A stretch of 53,864 nt of DNA from Streptomyces sp. RP5T. GTDB lineage: Bacteria; Actinomycetota; Actinomycetes; Streptomycetales; Streptomycetaceae. A program made the position numbers and the translations under genes. Below, in pieces: positions 47,097 to 52,181 of the stretch (positions within the stretch are counted from its first letter, which is position 1; each line of letters starts with the position of its first letter). The DNA is taken from positions 1 through 53,864 of the forward strand of contig NZ_RSAJ01000002.1 of assembly GCF_003933965.1 (NCBI RefSeq), read 5' to 3'. Under the pieces are notes generated by a model. The model was given only the letters and a program-made list of their open reading frames with translations. It ran no database searches and was not told where the DNA came from.

Positions 47097-47729
47097 ATGG
47101 GTCAGCCGGTGGAGCGGGAGAGTGGGGATACGGCGCACTCCGAGCTTCCGCCGGGGCAGCGACTGCAGCGCGGCTGGCCCGTCACGCACTACGGGCCGGT
47201 GCCCAAGTTCCGGCCCGAGCGCTGGGAGTTCCGGGTCTTCGGCGCCACCGCGGACGACGAGAAGCACTGCTGGAACCACGAGGAGTTCACGGCGCTGCCG
47301 TACACCACCGTCGTGGGTGACCTGCACTGTGTGACGAAGTTCAGCATGCTCGGCGCCGAGTGGGGCGGCATTCCCGCCCGCACCATCCTGGAGATCGCCC
47401 CGCCCGCGCCGGCGGTCACCCATGTGATGGTCTGGGCCGAGTACGGCTTCAGCTCCAACCTCCGGCTCGCCGACTTCGCGTCCGAGCGCACGATCTTCGC
47501 CACCCACAAGGACGGGGAGCTGCTGACCGCGGAGCACGGCTTCCCGCTGCGCCTGGTCGTCCCTCATCTGTACGCCTGGAAGGGGCCCAAATGGGTCCGC
47601 GGCGTGGAGTACATGACCGCCGACCGGCGCGGGTTCTGGGAGGAACGCGGCTACCACAACGTCGGCGACCCCTGGAAGGAGCAGCGCTACTCCTACCAGG
47701 AGGAGCCGGGGGACGGGCCGGACCTCTGA
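47097..47729 (+). CDS. Sulfite-oxidase-like molybdopterin oxidoreductase
   Basis: About 210 residues from ATG 47097 (MGQPVERESGD); ATG 47088 is an alternative. The central segment VVGDLHCVTKFSML carries the conserved Cys that binds the molybdenum cofactor in the sulfite oxidase fold (YedY/YuiH-like), with HVMVWAEYGFSSNL, PLRLVVPHLYAWKGPKWVRG and the family-typical ending GYHNVGDPWKEQRY. No signal peptide or heme domain is present. The natural substrate is unknown. Confidence 0.85.
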   Translation: MGQPVERESGDTAHSELPPGQRLQRGWPVTHYGPVPKFRPERWEFRVFGATADDEKHCWNHEEFTALPYTTVVGDLHCVTKFSMLGAEWGGIPARTILEIAPPAPAVTHVMVWAEYGFSSNLRLADFASERTIFATHKDGELLTAEHGFPLRLVVPHLYAWKGPKWVRGVEYMTADRRGFWEERGYHNVGDPWKEQRYSYQEEPGDGPDL

Positions 47730-47732
47730 GTC

Positions 47733-48236
47733 TCAGTGGGCGTGGTGGTGCTGGTGGACCACGGCGTGTCCCTTGCCGCGGCCGATCATCCACTTGTTGA
47801 CCGGCACCGTGACGACGAACGCGATGGCCAGCGAGATCGCCAGTGAGGCCCAGAAGAGCAGGTCGGCGAGTTCCGCGTCCATGGCGTCCGGCCACAGGGC
47901 GATCACGCCGTTGTCGATCAGCTCCATCACGGCGATGGACAGGGTGTCGGCGGCCAGGGCCACCCGGAGCGCCGCCCGGAACCCCATGCCGGCCTTCAGG
48001 ACCCCGCGCAGCGTGAGCGAGTAGCCGAAGAAGAAGGCCAGGACGATCGCCAGCACGGTGGTGGGCACATTGCCCCAGCCCAGCGCGGTCCCGACGACCA
48101 TGCCGAGCACCTCACCGATGGCGCAGCCGGTGAGGCAGTGGAGGGTGGCCTGGGCGGCGGTGGACCAGGTGGCACCCGGCGGCGTGGCGTGGGTGTGCTC
48201 GGTGTGCTCGGTGTGTGTGGAGTGCTCGTTGACCAT
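47733..48236 (-). CDS. DUF4396-like membrane protein with His-rich termini
   Basis: The 167-residue protein has His-rich ends (HTEHTEHTHATPP near residue 8 and HAVVHQHHHAH at the end) and four membrane helices (LHCLTGCAIGEVLGMVVG, VLAIVLAFFFGYSLTL, and two later). Topology and sequence fit the DUF4396 family. The CsoR-type operator upstream implicates copper: the His clusters could bind copper at the membrane. ATG 48236 is used. Convergent with the sulfite-oxidase-like gene by a three-base gap. Confidence 0.82.
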   Translation of the reverse strand: MVNEHSTHTEHTEHTHATPPGATWSTAAQATLHCLTGCAIGEVLGMVVGTALGWGNVPTTVLAIVLAFFFGYSLTLRGVLKAGMGFRAALRVALAADTLSIAVMELIDNGVIALWPDAMDAELADLLFWASLAISLAIAFVVTVPVNKWMIGRGKGHAVVHQHHHAH

Positions 48237-48282
48237 GGCTGATCCCCGGTGTCCGGTGGCGAATCCTTCGACAGGGCTCAAC

Positions 48283-48311
48283 TGTATACCCCCCTGGGGT
48301 ATTCCTGTGAA
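48283..48311 (-). promoter_or_regulatory. Promoter with CsoR-type copper operator in the spacer
   Basis: Minus strand: TTCACA (-35, 48306-48311) and TATACA (-10, 48283-48288) with a 17-base spacer. The operator ATACCCCCCTGGGGTAT (48286-48302) has perfect 7-base arms, the pattern bound by actinobacterial CsoR. CsoR would repress the DUF4396-like gene until Cu(I) is present. Confidence 0.8.
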
Positions 48312-48438
48312 GGTTCGTGCCGCGTTCCGGTAACGGACAGCACATACCGTGCCCAGAGCGCTACGCTGAGGTCCCTCGAGGGGCGAACGGGGTTCCGCTT
48401 GCGGTCCGGTTCGGGGGAGCGCTACACGGGGGACGACG

Positions 48439-49137
48439 GTGGGGCTGTTCGGAGAGCGGCATACCTTTTTCGGGGGTCTCGGTCCGGCGGACCGAGAGGC
48501 GTTGTCGGGGCTCGGCACCCGGCACGAGTACCCACCGCACGACACCCTCCTCGCGGAGGGCGACCGCACCACGTTCGCGGTCGTCCTGCTCGGCGGCTGG
48601 TGCACGGTGTGGACACCGACCGAGCGCGGCGGCCGGCTCATCCTGGCCCTGCGGCGGGCCGGTGAGGTCGTGGGCGACATGGCGGCACTCGACGGCCGGC
48701 CCCGCAGCGCCTCGGTCAGCGCCCTCGGCCCGGTGACCGGTCTGGTCGTACCCGGCGAGCGGTTCCGGCGTTTCCTGGCCTCCCGGCCGCACGCCAACGC
48801 GCTGATGACGATGCAGCTCACCGAGCGGCTGCGCAGCGCGGACCACGAGCGCCGGGCCCTCGCCTCCATGACGGTGTTGCAGAGGCTCGCGGAACGCCTG
48901 GTGGAACTCGCCGACCACACCGGCCGGCTGGAGGACGAGGCCCTGACCATACGGCTCCCCCTCGCGCAGCACGAACTGGCCGCCTCCGTGGGCTCCACCC
49001 GCGAGGCCGTCGCCAAGGCCCTGCGCCTCTTACGCGAACAGGGCCTGGTCCGCACCGGACCCGGCACCCTCGCCGTGGCCGACCTGGATCCCCTCCGCCT
49101 GCTCGCCGCCGGACAGCCCCCTGGCACACAGACCTAA
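48439..49137 (+). CDS. Crp/Fnr-family transcription regulator with a cyclic-nucleotide-type cassette
   Basis: The 232-residue protein has an N-terminal cNMP-binding fold whose phosphate-binding cassette reads GEVVGDMAALDGRPRSASV: the RSA segment (R82-S83 of E. coli CRP) is kept and the CRP E72 position is Asp. A C-terminal winged helix-turn-helix (LAQHELAASVGSTREAVAKALRLL) follows. GTG 48439 has GGGGGACG upstream. The ligand is not known. It precedes the cyclase-like gene by 105 bases on the same strand, so it could sense that enzyme's product. Confidence 0.87.
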   Translation: MGLFGERHTFFGGLGPADREALSGLGTRHEYPPHDTLLAEGDRTTFAVVLLGGWCTVWTPTERGGRLILALRRAGEVVGDMAALDGRPRSASVSALGPVTGLVVPGERFRRFLASRPHANALMTMQLTERLRSADHERRALASMTVLQRLAERLVELADHTGRLEDEALTIRLPLAQHELAASVGSTREAVAKALRLLREQGLVRTGPGTLAVADLDPLRLLAAGQPPGTQT

Positions 49138-49242: not shown

Positions 49243-49983
49243 ATGGAGGGGGAAGCCGCGTACGGCTTCATCGTCAACGTGGACGCGCAGGGCTCGGGCC
49301 TGTTGTCCGACACCGAGAAACCCGAGATGCGGCGCAGACTCTACGAGGTCACGAACGCCGCCTTCGAACAGGCCCGGATCCGCGCTCCCCGGCTCTACCA
49401 GGAGGACCGCGGCGACGGGATCCTCAGCGTCCTGGCGCCCGACGTGCCGCCCCGGCGGGTGGTGGGGGAGTGGCTGGAGTACCTCCACCAGAACCTCCGT
49501 CAGATCAACCGGGACCTCAACAAGCCCCTGCGGCTGCGTGCGGGGCTCCACATCGGGCCCGTCACGGCCGACGCGCACGGCCGCTCCGGACGGGCCGTCG
49601 ATCTGGCCTGCCGACTCGGTGACTGCGACACCGCCAAGGCGATCCTCAAGGCCGCCGAGGGCTCACCCCTGGTGGTGGCCGCCTCCGAGCGGCTGTACGA
49701 GGAGGTCGTGCTCGCGGGCGGGCGCTGGGTGGAGCCGGAGCGCTACCGACGTCACGAGGTGGAGCTGAAGGAGGGCCGCAGGGCCGCCTGGTTCACCGTG
49801 CCGGGGCTGTCCCAGCCACCCGACCCGGCGGCCGAGGCGAAGGACCTCCCGCCCGAGCCGCCGCAGCCCCAGGGCACCGGGGACAGTTTCGTCCAGAACA
49901 ACCACAACCACGGCAGCGGTCAGTTCATCGCGAACGGCAACGTCGACACGTTGCACATCAACCAGCACGGCGGTGACCGGTGA
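49243..49983 (+). CDS. Class III nucleotide-cyclase-like protein with C-terminal signalling motif
   Basis: A 246-residue protein from ATG 49243 (GGGAGGAG upstream). Residues 5-180 match a class III cyclase homology domain: metal Asp D14 in YGFIVNVDAQGSG, second Asp D58 in EDRGDGILSVL, then LRLRAGLHIGPVTAD, and GRAVDLACRLGD with R124. The Asn usual two residues before the Ala in this last motif is D120, so catalysis may be altered or absent. Pycsar cyclases are also class III and make cCMP or cUMP. After residue 190 comes a Pro-rich linker and a Gly/Asn motif (HNHGSGQFIANGNVDTLHI) shared with the next protein. The gene overlaps its neighbour by four bases (GTGA). Confidence 0.8.
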   Translation: MEGEAAYGFIVNVDAQGSGLLSDTEKPEMRRRLYEVTNAAFEQARIRAPRLYQEDRGDGILSVLAPDVPPRRVVGEWLEYLHQNLRQINRDLNKPLRLRAGLHIGPVTADAHGRSGRAVDLACRLGDCDTAKAILKAAEGSPLVVAASERLYEEVVLAGGRWVEPERYRRHEVELKEGRRAAWFTVPGLSQPPDPAAEAKDLPPEPPQPQGTGDSFVQNNHNHGSGQFIANGNVDTLHINQHGGDR

Positions 49984-52181
49984 ACGCACAGAGTCCTCAG
50001 CCGCCTCAGGGCAACCCGAAACCCCAGCAGCAACCGCCGCAGCAGAGAGCCGAGCCGGACAAGGCCGCCGGCTCCGACCAGGGGAACGGCCCGGAACAGC
50101 CCCAGTCCGACGTCATCGGGGGCGCCGCGGCCGACCCGCTCGGCGAGGAGGCGCTGCCCGGGGCCGCGGCCGCCGCCTCCCGGATCTACCGCTCCACCGT
50201 GTCCTCGCACGGCTCCGGCACCCTCATCAGCTCGGGGTCCGTGCAGACCATGAACTTCTACGGCGGACAGACGGCCGAGCGGCTGCTCGCCGGCCCCCTC
50301 CCCGAGGACGAACTGCGCAGGCTGCGCCGGGTCTTCCAGGAACCCGAGGACTACGACACCTACCGCGGGCAACTGCGCGGCGGACAGCTCCTGGTCCTGC
50401 TGGGCCGTCCCGGTACCGGTCGCTTCTACACCGCGCTGTCCCTGCTGGACGACCTGACCCGCGGCCAGGTCTCGCGGCTCGACCCGCGCACCGACCTGGA
50501 CAAGCTGGACGACGGCCAGATCGACGAGGGCCACGGCTACGTGCTGGAACCCGGCACCACCGGACTGCCCGACGAGACCGGCCTGGACCGGCTGTGCGAA
50601 CTGCTGCGCAAGAAGCAGGCGTACGCGGTGCTGCTGGCCACCCCCGAACCCGGGGACATGCTCTCCCGCAGCGGTCGCTACCACCGCGTCCACACCCCGG
50701 CCGCCCAGACCGCCGTACTCGAAGGTCACCTCGCCGACGAACTCGACGAGGCGGGCCCCGAGGCGTACGAGCGGGCCCGGGCCATGGCCCTCGATCCCGA
50801 GGTGGTGGAGGCGTGCGGCCTGAACGACCTGCTGCCCGCCGAGGCCGCCCACTTCGCGACCCTGCTGGCCCGCAACACCCGCGGCGAGCTCACCCACGAC
50901 GAACTGCTCGCCGCATGCCGGAGGTTCGCCGAGAGCCAGGCCGCCGAGTGGTTCGCCGGAGGTGTCCGCTCCGAGACCCCCGAGCGGTTACGGGACGCGG
51001 CCTACCGGATCGCCGTCGCCGTCCTGGACGGGGCCTCGCTCAGCGCCGTAGCCGAGGCCGCCGAGGTGCTCGCCTGGGAACTGGCCGTCACCGTCGATCC
51101 GGAGGCGACCCCCGGCCGCCCGCTGTTCAGCGACGGCGTCGACGCCCGGCTGGTCTCCGCCCGCGCGGTCGCCGAACTCGGCACGGAGGAGGTCGGTACC
51201 GAGGAGGTCCCGGTCCGCACCGTGCGCTTCGCGGGTGACGCCCTCGCTCCGGCCGTCCTCGGCCATCTCTGGCAGCACCGGCACAACGCGCGCGGGCCCG
51301 TGCTGCGTTGGCTGTCCGGACTGTGCGAGGACGACCGGCCCCAGGTCTGGGTGCGGGCCGCCGTCGCGGCCGGACAGCTGTGCCGCCTCGACCTGTCGCA
51401 CACCGTGCACGAACTGGTCCAGCCCATGGCACAGGCCAAGCAGGCCCGGCGCCGGCTCTTCGCCGCGACCGTGCTCGACGTGGCCCTGCGCTCCCCGGAC
51501 GTCGGCAGCGCGATCCGCGCCCTGGTCGCCTCCTGGGCCCGGCACGGCGACGAGCAGCTGCGCTGGACGGCGGGCGCCGTGCTCGGCAGGGGGCGGGCCA
51601 CGGTCACCCCGCGCGAGACGCTGGACCTGCTCGGCGGGATCGGCGTCTGGGACGAGGGCCGACTGCGGGCCGACGCGGCCGTCCAGGTGGCCCACTTCGC
51701 GGGCGCCCACCCCGACGGCCGGACGCCGAGCCGGATCCGGGCCTGGCTCTCCGACGAACGCCGGCCCCAGCAGGACCTCGGTCTGCAGAGCACGATCTTC
51801 CTGGCCTCCGTCACCGTGGTCGATCTCTGGAACCAGCACGGCGATCTGGAGGGCCACGGCGACTGGCCGCTGATGCTCGCCCTCGCCGCCGTACGGCCCG
51901 CGCAGGCCGTGGAACTCGCCGGGCTCCTGTGGACGGCCCTGCAGACGCCACGCTCCTACGAGGCAGCCGTCGACGCCCTGTCCGGCTGGCTGCGCGACTC
52001 GGCCGGCCGGCCCTGGGCCGAGTGGCTGGAGCGGTTCCTGCCGCTGCTCGTGCACAGCCAGGACGACCGGGACCGGCTGCTGGCACTGATCACGGAACTG
52101 ACCGAAGACCCCGACCAACCACTAGACGAACAGCAGGTCCGCCGCCTGTGGGGGGCGGTCCAGGGAGCGGGTACACCATGA
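49980..52181 (+). CDS. STAND-like protein with degenerate P-loop and C-terminal helical repeats
   Basis: The 733-residue protein from GTG 49980 has a Pro/Gln-rich N-terminus, the shared motif HGSGTLISSGSVQTMNFYGG (residues 77-96), then a P-loop-like fold (about 115-290) with LLVLLGRPGTGRFYTALSLL: the Walker A Lys is Arg (R148). A Walker B-like GYVLEPG follows. From about residue 390, HEAT/ARM-type helical pairs run to the end (for example PVLRWLSGLCEDDRPQVWVR). STAND NTPases act as threat sensors; the Arg change suggests weak or no hydrolysis. It overlaps both neighbours (GTGA, ATGA). Confidence 0.75.
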   Translation: MNAQSPQPPQGNPKPQQQPPQQRAEPDKAAGSDQGNGPEQPQSDVIGGAAADPLGEEALPGAAAAASRIYRSTVSSHGSGTLISSGSVQTMNFYGGQTAERLLAGPLPEDELRRLRRVFQEPEDYDTYRGQLRGGQLLVLLGRPGTGRFYTALSLLDDLTRGQVSRLDPRTDLDKLDDGQIDEGHGYVLEPGTTGLPDETGLDRLCELLRKKQAYAVLLATPEPGDMLSRSGRYHRVHTPAAQTAVLEGHLADELDEAGPEAYERARAMALDPEVVEACGLNDLLPAEAAHFATLLARNTRGELTHDELLAACRRFAESQAAEWFAGGVRSETPERLRDAAYRIAVAVLDGASLSAVAEAAEVLAWELAVTVDPEATPGRPLFSDGVDARLVSARAVAELGTEEVGTEEVPVRTVRFAGDALAPAVLGHLWQHRHNARGPVLRWLSGLCEDDRPQVWVRAAVAAGQLCRLDLSHTVHELVQPMAQAKQARRRLFAATVLDVALRSPDVGSAIRALVASWARHGDEQLRWTAGAVLGRGRATVTPRETLDLLGGIGVWDEGRLRADAAVQVAHFAGAHPDGRTPSRIRAWLSDERRPQQDLGLQSTIFLASVTVVDLWNQHGDLEGHGDWPLMLALAAVRPAQAVELAGLLWTALQTPRSYEAAVDALSGWLRDSAGRPWAEWLERFLPLLVHSQDDRDRLLALITELTEDPDQPLDEQQVRRLWGAVQGAGTP

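Follow-up and report, generated by a model that had tools for sequence, protein, structure and literature searches.

The closest described system to the locus studied here is the CsoR regulon of Streptomyces lividans, which, in the available portion of the report describing it (PMC3902906), comprises csoR, copZA1, and copZA2. According to that portion, CsoR coordinates Cu(I) through Cys, His, and Cys ligands, and its operator has the consensus ATATACCCCTNAGGGGTATAT, in which a TAC/GTA repeat at a 9-base distance is required. The three sites named there lie before csoR and the two copZA operons, and none lies before a DUF4396 gene. The available part of a second paper (PMC6414726) states that copper promotes differentiation and antibiotic production in Streptomyces. 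DUF4396 (PF14342) is a Pfam family of several subfamilies whose name gives no role. We found no published role for it in the literature searched, under either its name or its accession number; a single partially available source mentions it, among proteins flanking a heavy-metal gene cluster. Similarly, the literature on CsoR and copper regulons that we searched, in the portions available, describes no DUF4396 gene under CsoR, although the principal paper on the S. lividans regulon (JBC 2012, 10.1074/jbc.M112.352740) might mention one. The accessible parts of a Kineococcus radiotolerans copper proteome study (PMC2928746) and of a study of SigG1 in S. tsukubaensis (PMC7730460) contain nothing on DUF4396.

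Here, we analyzed a stretch of 53,864 nucleotides (the window), which is one contig of the 9.59-Mb genome of Streptomyces sp. RP5T. Before its DUF4396 gene stands a 17-base palindrome (Table 1) whose arms, ATACCCC and GGGGTAT, are both perfect and enclose the center CCT, just as the first-pass annotation of this DNA had described; the start codon of the gene lies 49 bases beyond its end. The segment at 48287-48301 (TACCCCCCTGGGGTA) contains TAC and GTA as an inverted repeat with a spacing of 9 bases, together with G/C tracts, and so has the form of a type 2 operator. In this form, spacing, and tract composition, it resembles the S. lividans sites as given in the available portion of PMC3902906. 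The exact 17-base sequence occurs once in the window and in none of 100 dinucleotide shuffles, and the base composition of the window predicts 0.023 such 17-mers in 9.59 Mb. A chance origin of the operator, which we also considered, is ruled out by its conservation in Streptomyces, by the aligned sites, and by these shuffles.

The operator lies inside the promoter region. When 107 Streptomyces sites were aligned, a family promoter emerged (weak TTGAGG, N17, TACGGT) in which the operator forms the spacer, and on this predicted consensus its occupation could block transcription. The arms are nearly invariant in the alignment, whereas two of the three center bases vary; in the flanks, conservation extends to the −10 region and, to a moderate degree, to a GGA immediately preceding the site, but not to the rest. 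The first-pass annotation had placed the operator in the spacer of a clear −35/−10 pair, using a different pair of boxes (separated by N17), which are indeed present. Whichever pair is used, the operator occupies the spacer, but “clear” was too strong, as a consensus scan of the single sequence found no promoter in 47700-48500.

Table 1. Coordinates of the features discussed (window positions unless a locus handle precedes them)
Feature	Position	Strand	Basis or remark
DUF4396 gene, 167 aa	47733..48236	-	Pfam match, alignment, AlphaFold2
CsoR-type (type 2) operator ATACCCCCCTGGGGTAT	48286..48302	none	7-base arms, TAC-X9-GTA spacing
-10 element TACAGT (family consensus TACGGT)	48281..48286	-	Alignment of 107 Streptomyces sites; overlaps last operator base
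Weakly conserved -35 position, CACAGG (family consensus TTGAGG)	48304..48309	-	Alignment of 107 Streptomyces sites
Alternative box TTCACA	48311-48306		First-pass annotation
Alternative box TATACA	48288-48283		First-pass annotation
Divergent Crp-type regulator gene	48439-49137	+	
C terminus of 278-aa ORF, HGSGQFIANGNVDTLHINQ	~49890-49980	+	Resembles motif in following 733-aa ORF
N-terminal part of 733-aa ORF, HGSGTLISSGSVQTMNFYG	~50190-50270	+	Similar to C terminus of 278-aa ORF
Sulfur cluster palindromes TACCCCCGGGGGTA and TACCCCCCGGGGTA	L018:12-60 and 10414		CstR-like cluster, contig C432
DUF4396-multicopper oxidase fusion, Rhodanobacter plasmid, 682 aa	L126:4773-6821		Among copper genes
DUF4396-multicopper oxidase fusion, Bradyrhizobium plasmid, 630 aa	L337:4773-6665		Among copper genes
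Subfamily A DUF4396 fused to His-rich module	L097:4549-5943; L151:4998-6491		Actinobacterial
Csp-type (DUF326) gene adjoining DUF4396, S. clavifer plasmid	L341:5917-6989		
DUF4396 gene, Staphylococcus casei plasmid	L125:371-1024		Only annotated gene of 2.5-kb plasmid
CueR-linked DUF4396 loci	L130, L131, L142, L144, L170, L178, L185, L194		Among best 80 of 585 loci

Across the RP5T genome there are only three perfect TACCCC-N3-GGGGTA sites (each palindrome counted once), and they precede copA, copZ-copA, and the DUF4396 gene. Since composition alone predicts about one match of this 12-letter pattern per genome, it is the genes beside the sites that carry the weight. Seven sites have one mismatch, and only two of these keep both the TAC and GTA ends: one before copA, 47 bases from the perfect copA site, and one before csoR. 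The sites of the copper genes (copA, copZ-copA, and csoR) all have the 9-base spacing. At two mismatches there was no enrichment, either in the genome (161 sites versus 203 for a backward-read control) or in the window (1 observed versus 1.44 expected). As for the protein that might read these sites, the genome encodes one copper-type CsoR paralogue (C..H..C) and two CstR-like paralogues that lack the metal-binding His. The copper-type gene, on contig C550, has the residues C..HLRHC, that is, the Cys-His-Cys ligands of a Cu(I)-type CsoR, where the ligand spacing used for this call is our assumption; its product reached none of the NCBIfam copper-CsoR models (RicR, 134 bits versus a cutoff of 175). 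A CstR-like cluster on contig C432, whose genes appear from their sequences to encode a persulfide dioxygenase and rhodaneses, has three sites in which TAC and GTA are separated by X8, versus X9 at the copper sites. This difference in spacing could perhaps serve as a rule separating the CstR-like from the copper regulon. Given its X9 spacing and the copA and copZ-copA company of the matching sites, we read the site before the DUF4396 gene as a CsoR operator, and on these grounds it is almost certainly under CsoR control.

The first-pass annotation had proposed a search for the operator before DUF4396 genes elsewhere, and this search proved to be informative. A DUF4396 match is present in 107 of 150 Streptomyces genomes. 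We studied 123 loci (including L001 and L020-L049), of which 119 belong to the HC-x-x-GC subfamily (here called subfamily A); four fragmentary or broken places (G112, G085:C121, the second piece of G142:C52, and G043) were left out. When at least 11 of the 12 arm bases were required no more than 400 bp upstream of the domain, 107/119 subfamily A genes had a site, which was perfect in 99. Two controls, 400 bp taken from within each gene and one mononucleotide shuffle per upstream region, both gave 0/119, with a best score of 9 of 12 arm bases in each. Among the 12 genes with no site within 400 bp, one stands beside copZ-copA and has its site farther upstream, 861 bp from the domain, four retain the oxidoreductase neighbor of the window, and one is near a DUF305 gene; on present evidence, eleven are true exceptions. 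None of three Streptomyces genes of other DUF4396 subfamilies is preceded by a site (a fourth entry being a fragment).

Beyond this genus, we sampled 396 genomes evenly across the phylum; 50 have a match, and 42 have one over the cutoff. Forty places were taken, 34 of which matched the Streptomyces profile, and 26 of these 34 are of subfamily A (one with Trp replacing the second Cys). An X9 site lies within 500 bp in 17 of the 26 subfamily A loci; among the nine lacking it, four (L083, L086, L087, and L100) have CopA and CsoR genes alongside, on the same strand. Again, none of the eight genes of other subfamilies in this sample has a site. We also scanned the GTDB with an Ensifer protein as the ranking query and took the best 80 of 585 loci as a sample only; going by the labels in the sequence records, 49 are actinobacterial (one from Streptomyces) and 31 are from other phyla. 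Some genomes are in both samples, and their counts are therefore not additive. Of the 49 actinobacterial loci among these best 80 of 585, 32 have the site, and in another 8 a copper-type gene lies no more than 5 kb away; the remaining 9 have neither, although two of them (L158 and L198) contain a site in another part of the locus. In the best 80 of 585 loci as a whole, 33/80 upstream regions have a site within a total of 31,754 bases, versus 13 sites in the 715,738 bases elsewhere (a figure that counts the domains, although they were themselves not scanned). In the samples studied, only the HCLTGCAIGE-type subfamily carries the CsoR site, and other subfamilies may differ in role. A second subfamily, marked by HC-AGD near the start of helix 1 (L327-L329, L093, L096, and L110), occurs in some actinobacteria without a CsoR site. 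One locus labeled as a Bifidobacterium breve MAG (L171) combines DUF4396 with a perfect actinobacterial-type CsoR site; its contig may be misbinned. In the phylum of a betaproteobacterial MAG, the Pfam model matched 24/299 genomes, 12/299 over the cutoff; eight of the weak matches were examined, presumably belong with MacB-type ABC permeases, MlaE-type proteins, and PepSY-type proteins, and were discarded as short membrane-helix matches.

In the window itself, the DUF4396 gene has as neighbors a divergent gene for a Crp-type regulator and genes for a molybdopterin oxidoreductase and for a ferritin-like protein with a BFD-type ferredoxin, and Pfam analysis found no copper gene adjoining it; Streptomyces sp. 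uw30 (L183) has the same neighbors. Further along the window, the C terminus of a 278-aa ORF and the N-terminal part of the 733-aa ORF that follows carry similar short motifs, which we take to resemble those shared by an NLR-like protein and its effector in bacterial amyloid signaling. Copper genes are frequent neighbors of DUF4396 in other genomes. We counted as copper-type any relative of CopA, CsoR, HMA/CopZ, multicopper oxidase, cupredoxin, or CueR, excluding DUF305 and DUF411. Among the 31 loci of other phyla in the best 80 of 585, one has a site, 15 have copper-type neighbors, and 15 have neither; the first query set gave 7, and the count of 15 was reached after queries were added from L132, L140, and L185, which were chosen after Pfam had named them. 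Given a few copA genes per genome, rough arithmetic, used here in place of a control set, would place a chance copper neighbor at ca. 1% of loci. The arrangements include a one-strand CopA-CsoR-(CopZ)-DUF4396 order (L083, L086, L087, and L098-L100), copZ-DUF4396-copA in Ensifer canadensis, HMA-HMA-DUF4396-cupredoxin in Microvirga (L140), and, on a Kineococcus plasmid, a CsoR-type regulator, HMA, P-ATPase, and DUF4396, where the regulator gene is preceded by two perfect sites.

In Proteobacteria, the same subfamily is paired with a different copper sensor. Eight of the best 80 of 585 loci (Table 1) contain genes that we call CueR-like by the motif C-x-GD-x4-CPI, which we assume to be diagnostic, and five of these eight also contain copA. 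The one regulator that was scored, that of L185, reached 163.4 bits with the NCBIfam CueR model (cutoff, 147.4); its gene is divergent to an HMA gene, which is followed by DUF4396. Thus, the CueR-copZ-copA modules of Proteobacteria share a DUF4396 of the same subfamily with actinobacteria, but they are under activator control, while the gene in the window is predicted to be under the repressor CsoR.

DUF4396 also travels on plasmids, of which tblastn returned 52 records, haloarchaea included. We opened 20 of these 52 loci, and 17 are annotated. A clear copper gene is present in 8/17 (Kineococcus, Caballeronia, Rhodanobacter, Halomarina, Bradyrhizobium, Chroococcidiopsis, S. longwoodensis, and S. 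clavifer), 2/17 are doubtful (L118, with a heavy-metal ATPase among other metal genes, and L336, with cytochrome oxidase only), and 7/17 have no copper gene, although one of these (L119) has a CsoR site. Of the 20 opened loci, 14 were scanned for the operator: a perfect site lies 161 to 184 bases before the DUF4396 match in 4/4 Streptomyces plasmid loci, a Kocuria plasmid has a site with 11 of 12 arm bases, and the non-actinobacterial plasmid loci gave 0/8. On one plasmid, from Staphylococcus casei (Table 1), DUF4396 is the sole annotated gene.

Two plasmid-borne proteins, in Rhodanobacter and Bradyrhizobium, are fusions of DUF4396 with a multicopper oxidase, and the closest structures to the former in the PDB are a multicopper oxidase and a two-domain laccase. 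In two actinobacterial loci, subfamily A DUF4396 is instead fused to a His-rich module with conserved HxHP motifs and seven His residues that are invariant across L151 and eight aligned relatives. This module is predicted to consist of Ig-like domains, for which a fold search found no specific relative, and it probably lies outside the cell. Stand-alone relatives of the module occur near copA in several loci, and in the RP5T genome a relative of its first domain, matching no Pfam family at E ≤ 0.01, is divergent from copA, with two CsoR sites between them. Judging by gene order, our guess is that SCO1044 is a member of this module family. SCO1044 is listed as putatively CsoR repressed in the available part of PMC6414726. 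Another partner is the Csp-type (DUF326) copper-binding protein, whose gene adjoins DUF4396 on the S. clavifer plasmid. DUF326 is found in 27/150 Streptomyces genomes; it immediately adjoins a complete DUF4396 gene in four (G118, G136, G074, and G046), lies 2.2 kb from DUF4396 in a further one, and sits next to a broken DUF4396 remnant in another. While multicopper oxidases and Csp are encoded near DUF4396 or fused to it, DUF4396 itself has no Pfam match to either and is predicted to form a bundle of membrane helices.

That the gene encodes a DUF4396 protein, as first annotated, was confirmed by a full-length match to the Pfam model (E = 1.5e-44; 152.2 bits versus a cutoff of 27), the only such match in the genome. 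AlphaFold2 (mean pLDDT, 83.5) predicts helices at residues 24-52, 56-81, 86-114, and 126-162, between His-rich termini. Given the positive charges in the loop between helices 2 and 3 and after helix 4, both termini would be cytosolic. We aligned 79 proteins (the window protein and 78 loci from the best 80 of 585, the long proteins of L151 and L192 being omitted). In this sample, H33, C34, C38, E42, D97, T98, S100, M104, E105, and N109 are invariant (79/79), thus including an H33-C34-x3-C38 motif, and D108 is kept in 78/79. The first-pass annotation had noted His clusters at both ends of the protein. The C-terminal one held up, H157 and H161 being kept in 77/79, but the N-terminal one varies in size and is missing in 8/79 (same best 80 of 585), a count that depends on the chosen start codons. 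Judging from the helix ends of the model, H33, C34, and C38 would lie close to H157 and H161. The protein matches no other Pfam family at E ≤ 0.001 and no NCBIfam model at E ≤ 0.01, and among the copper transporter families of Pfam (P-type ATPase, CopD, Ctr, and RND) there was likewise no match. Fold searches of the model with Foldseek and VIA-align gave no clear relative: the best Foldseek hit in the PDB had an E value of 1.1, and the best fold alignment (Z, 9.3; rmsd, 3.9 over 130 residues) was to a bacterial dynamin, all others having Z ≤ 7.2. A sequence search of the PDB with the DUF4396 profile returned only four ABCG5 sequences (E, 0.03; profile positions 111-163).

The original reading, a copper operator driving a His-rich DUF4396 membrane protein, thus gains support from the conservation of the operator, the copper gene neighbors, the pairing with CueR-like genes, and the multicopper oxidase fusion, even though many loci, the window among them, have no copper gene nearby. 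The identity, spacing, and conservation of the operator, the copper context, the fusions, and the invariant residues were all computed directly. Because a copper switch precedes the gene and copper-handling genes are its frequent neighbors, DUF4396 most probably belongs, as a new component, to the machinery for removing excess copper. We consider it likely that the protein handles Cu(I) directly, while the chances that it exports copper or hands it off outward seem to us about even. Of the roles in storage, export, or sensing suggested at first, export or hand-off is favored, with no firm separation from the others.

We consider it probable that DUF4396 is a four-helix membrane protein which is derepressed by Cu(I) via CsoR, accepts Cu(I) from the cytosol, and either exports the ion or passes it on at the outer side; the scheme is one in which we infer CsoR binding, induction, Cu(I) binding, topology, and the direction of transport. 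Without copper, apo-CsoR would cover the promoter spacer and block transcription. A rise in cytosolic Cu(I) would release CsoR, and DUF4396 would then be made alongside CopZ and CopA. Cu(I) may be captured by the cytosolic His-rich tails together with two sets of residues at inner helix ends, H33-C34-x3-C38 (helix 1) and H157/H161 (helix 4), and the polar and soft ligands of helix 3 (D97, S100, M104, E105, and D108) may help it to cross. It would then be released outside or handed to an acceptor, such as a cupredoxin, a multicopper oxidase, or the His-rich Ig-like protein. The outward direction is favored because of the fusions to copper oxidases and to the His-rich module that is probably outside. 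Somewhat more tentatively, and with odds that we put a little short of even, DUF4396 may represent a new family of membrane Cu(I) transporters in bacteria and haloarchaea, one whose four-helix fold would be unrelated to that of the known copper pumps and which would have been recruited separately under CsoR in Actinomycetota and CueR in Proteobacteria, sometimes by fusion to the enzyme or protein that accepts the metal outside.

Two alternatives leave the copper link in place and change what the protein does with the metal. One possibility, which we consider unlikely but which has several points in its favor, is that DUF4396 is a CsoR-controlled membrane buffer or docking platform whose His tails bind Cu(I) and pass it to CopA with no transport. 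The His-rich tails themselves, the copZ-DUF4396-copA order in Ensifer and Sinorhizobium, and the Csp copper-binding protein gene beside DUF4396 would all suit such a platform; the invariant acidic and Met residues of helix 3 and the fusions to domains that are probably outside suggest instead a path through the membrane, and copA is missing from the 5-kb surroundings of DUF4396 in many of the best 80 of 585 loci. Alternatively, DUF4396 may feed copper to cuproenzymes (cytochrome oxidase and multicopper oxidase), with copper control matching supply to demand. It lies directly before coxB-ctaD in Caballeronia, ca. 2.6 to 4.7 kb from cytochrome oxidase genes in Rhizobium, ca. 5 kb from a cytochrome oxidase assembly gene in S. 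longwoodensis, and next to a copper oxidase in Chroococcidiopsis, and the multicopper oxidase fusions could be read in the same way. However, CsoR sites and CueR partners are marks of a response to excess copper, copA accompanies DUF4396 in most of the CueR-linked loci, and no coxB or ctaD relative was found among the best 80 of 585 loci at the thresholds used, and we think a supply role quite improbable.

Two further alternatives concern the site rather than the protein. Were it read by a CstR-like persulfide regulator, the DUF4396 gene would belong to sulfur rather than copper stress. The two CstR-like genes in the genome, the same G/C tracts in the sites of the CstR-like cluster, and a Streptomyces plasmid on which MBL-fold, rhodanese, and sulfite-exporter genes and a metal-sensitive regulator lie downstream of DUF4396 are all consistent with this, but the X8 spacing of that cluster, versus X9 at the copper genes and the DUF4396 gene, and the copper context of DUF4396 in other genomes make it extremely unlikely. 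The operator might otherwise serve mainly the divergent Crp-type regulator gene, whose start codon is 136 bp away, operators being symmetric. This, too, is very doubtful, as the conserved −10 element beside the site points to DUF4396, and the site is also found before DUF4396 where the neighbors differ, both on plasmids and in other actinobacteria.

The CsoR regulon and its operator type were known; what is new is DUF4396 as a predicted member of that regulon and, possibly, as a new kind of copper membrane protein. For a protein with no assigned role, wiring to two unrelated copper sensors together with fusion to multicopper oxidase is strong in silico evidence, and the invariant H-C-x3-C motif and helix 3 residues name the targets for mutation. 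With these results, the CsoR regulon of many Streptomyces species gains a predicted member, and a widespread family of unknown function gains its first testable role, in copper.
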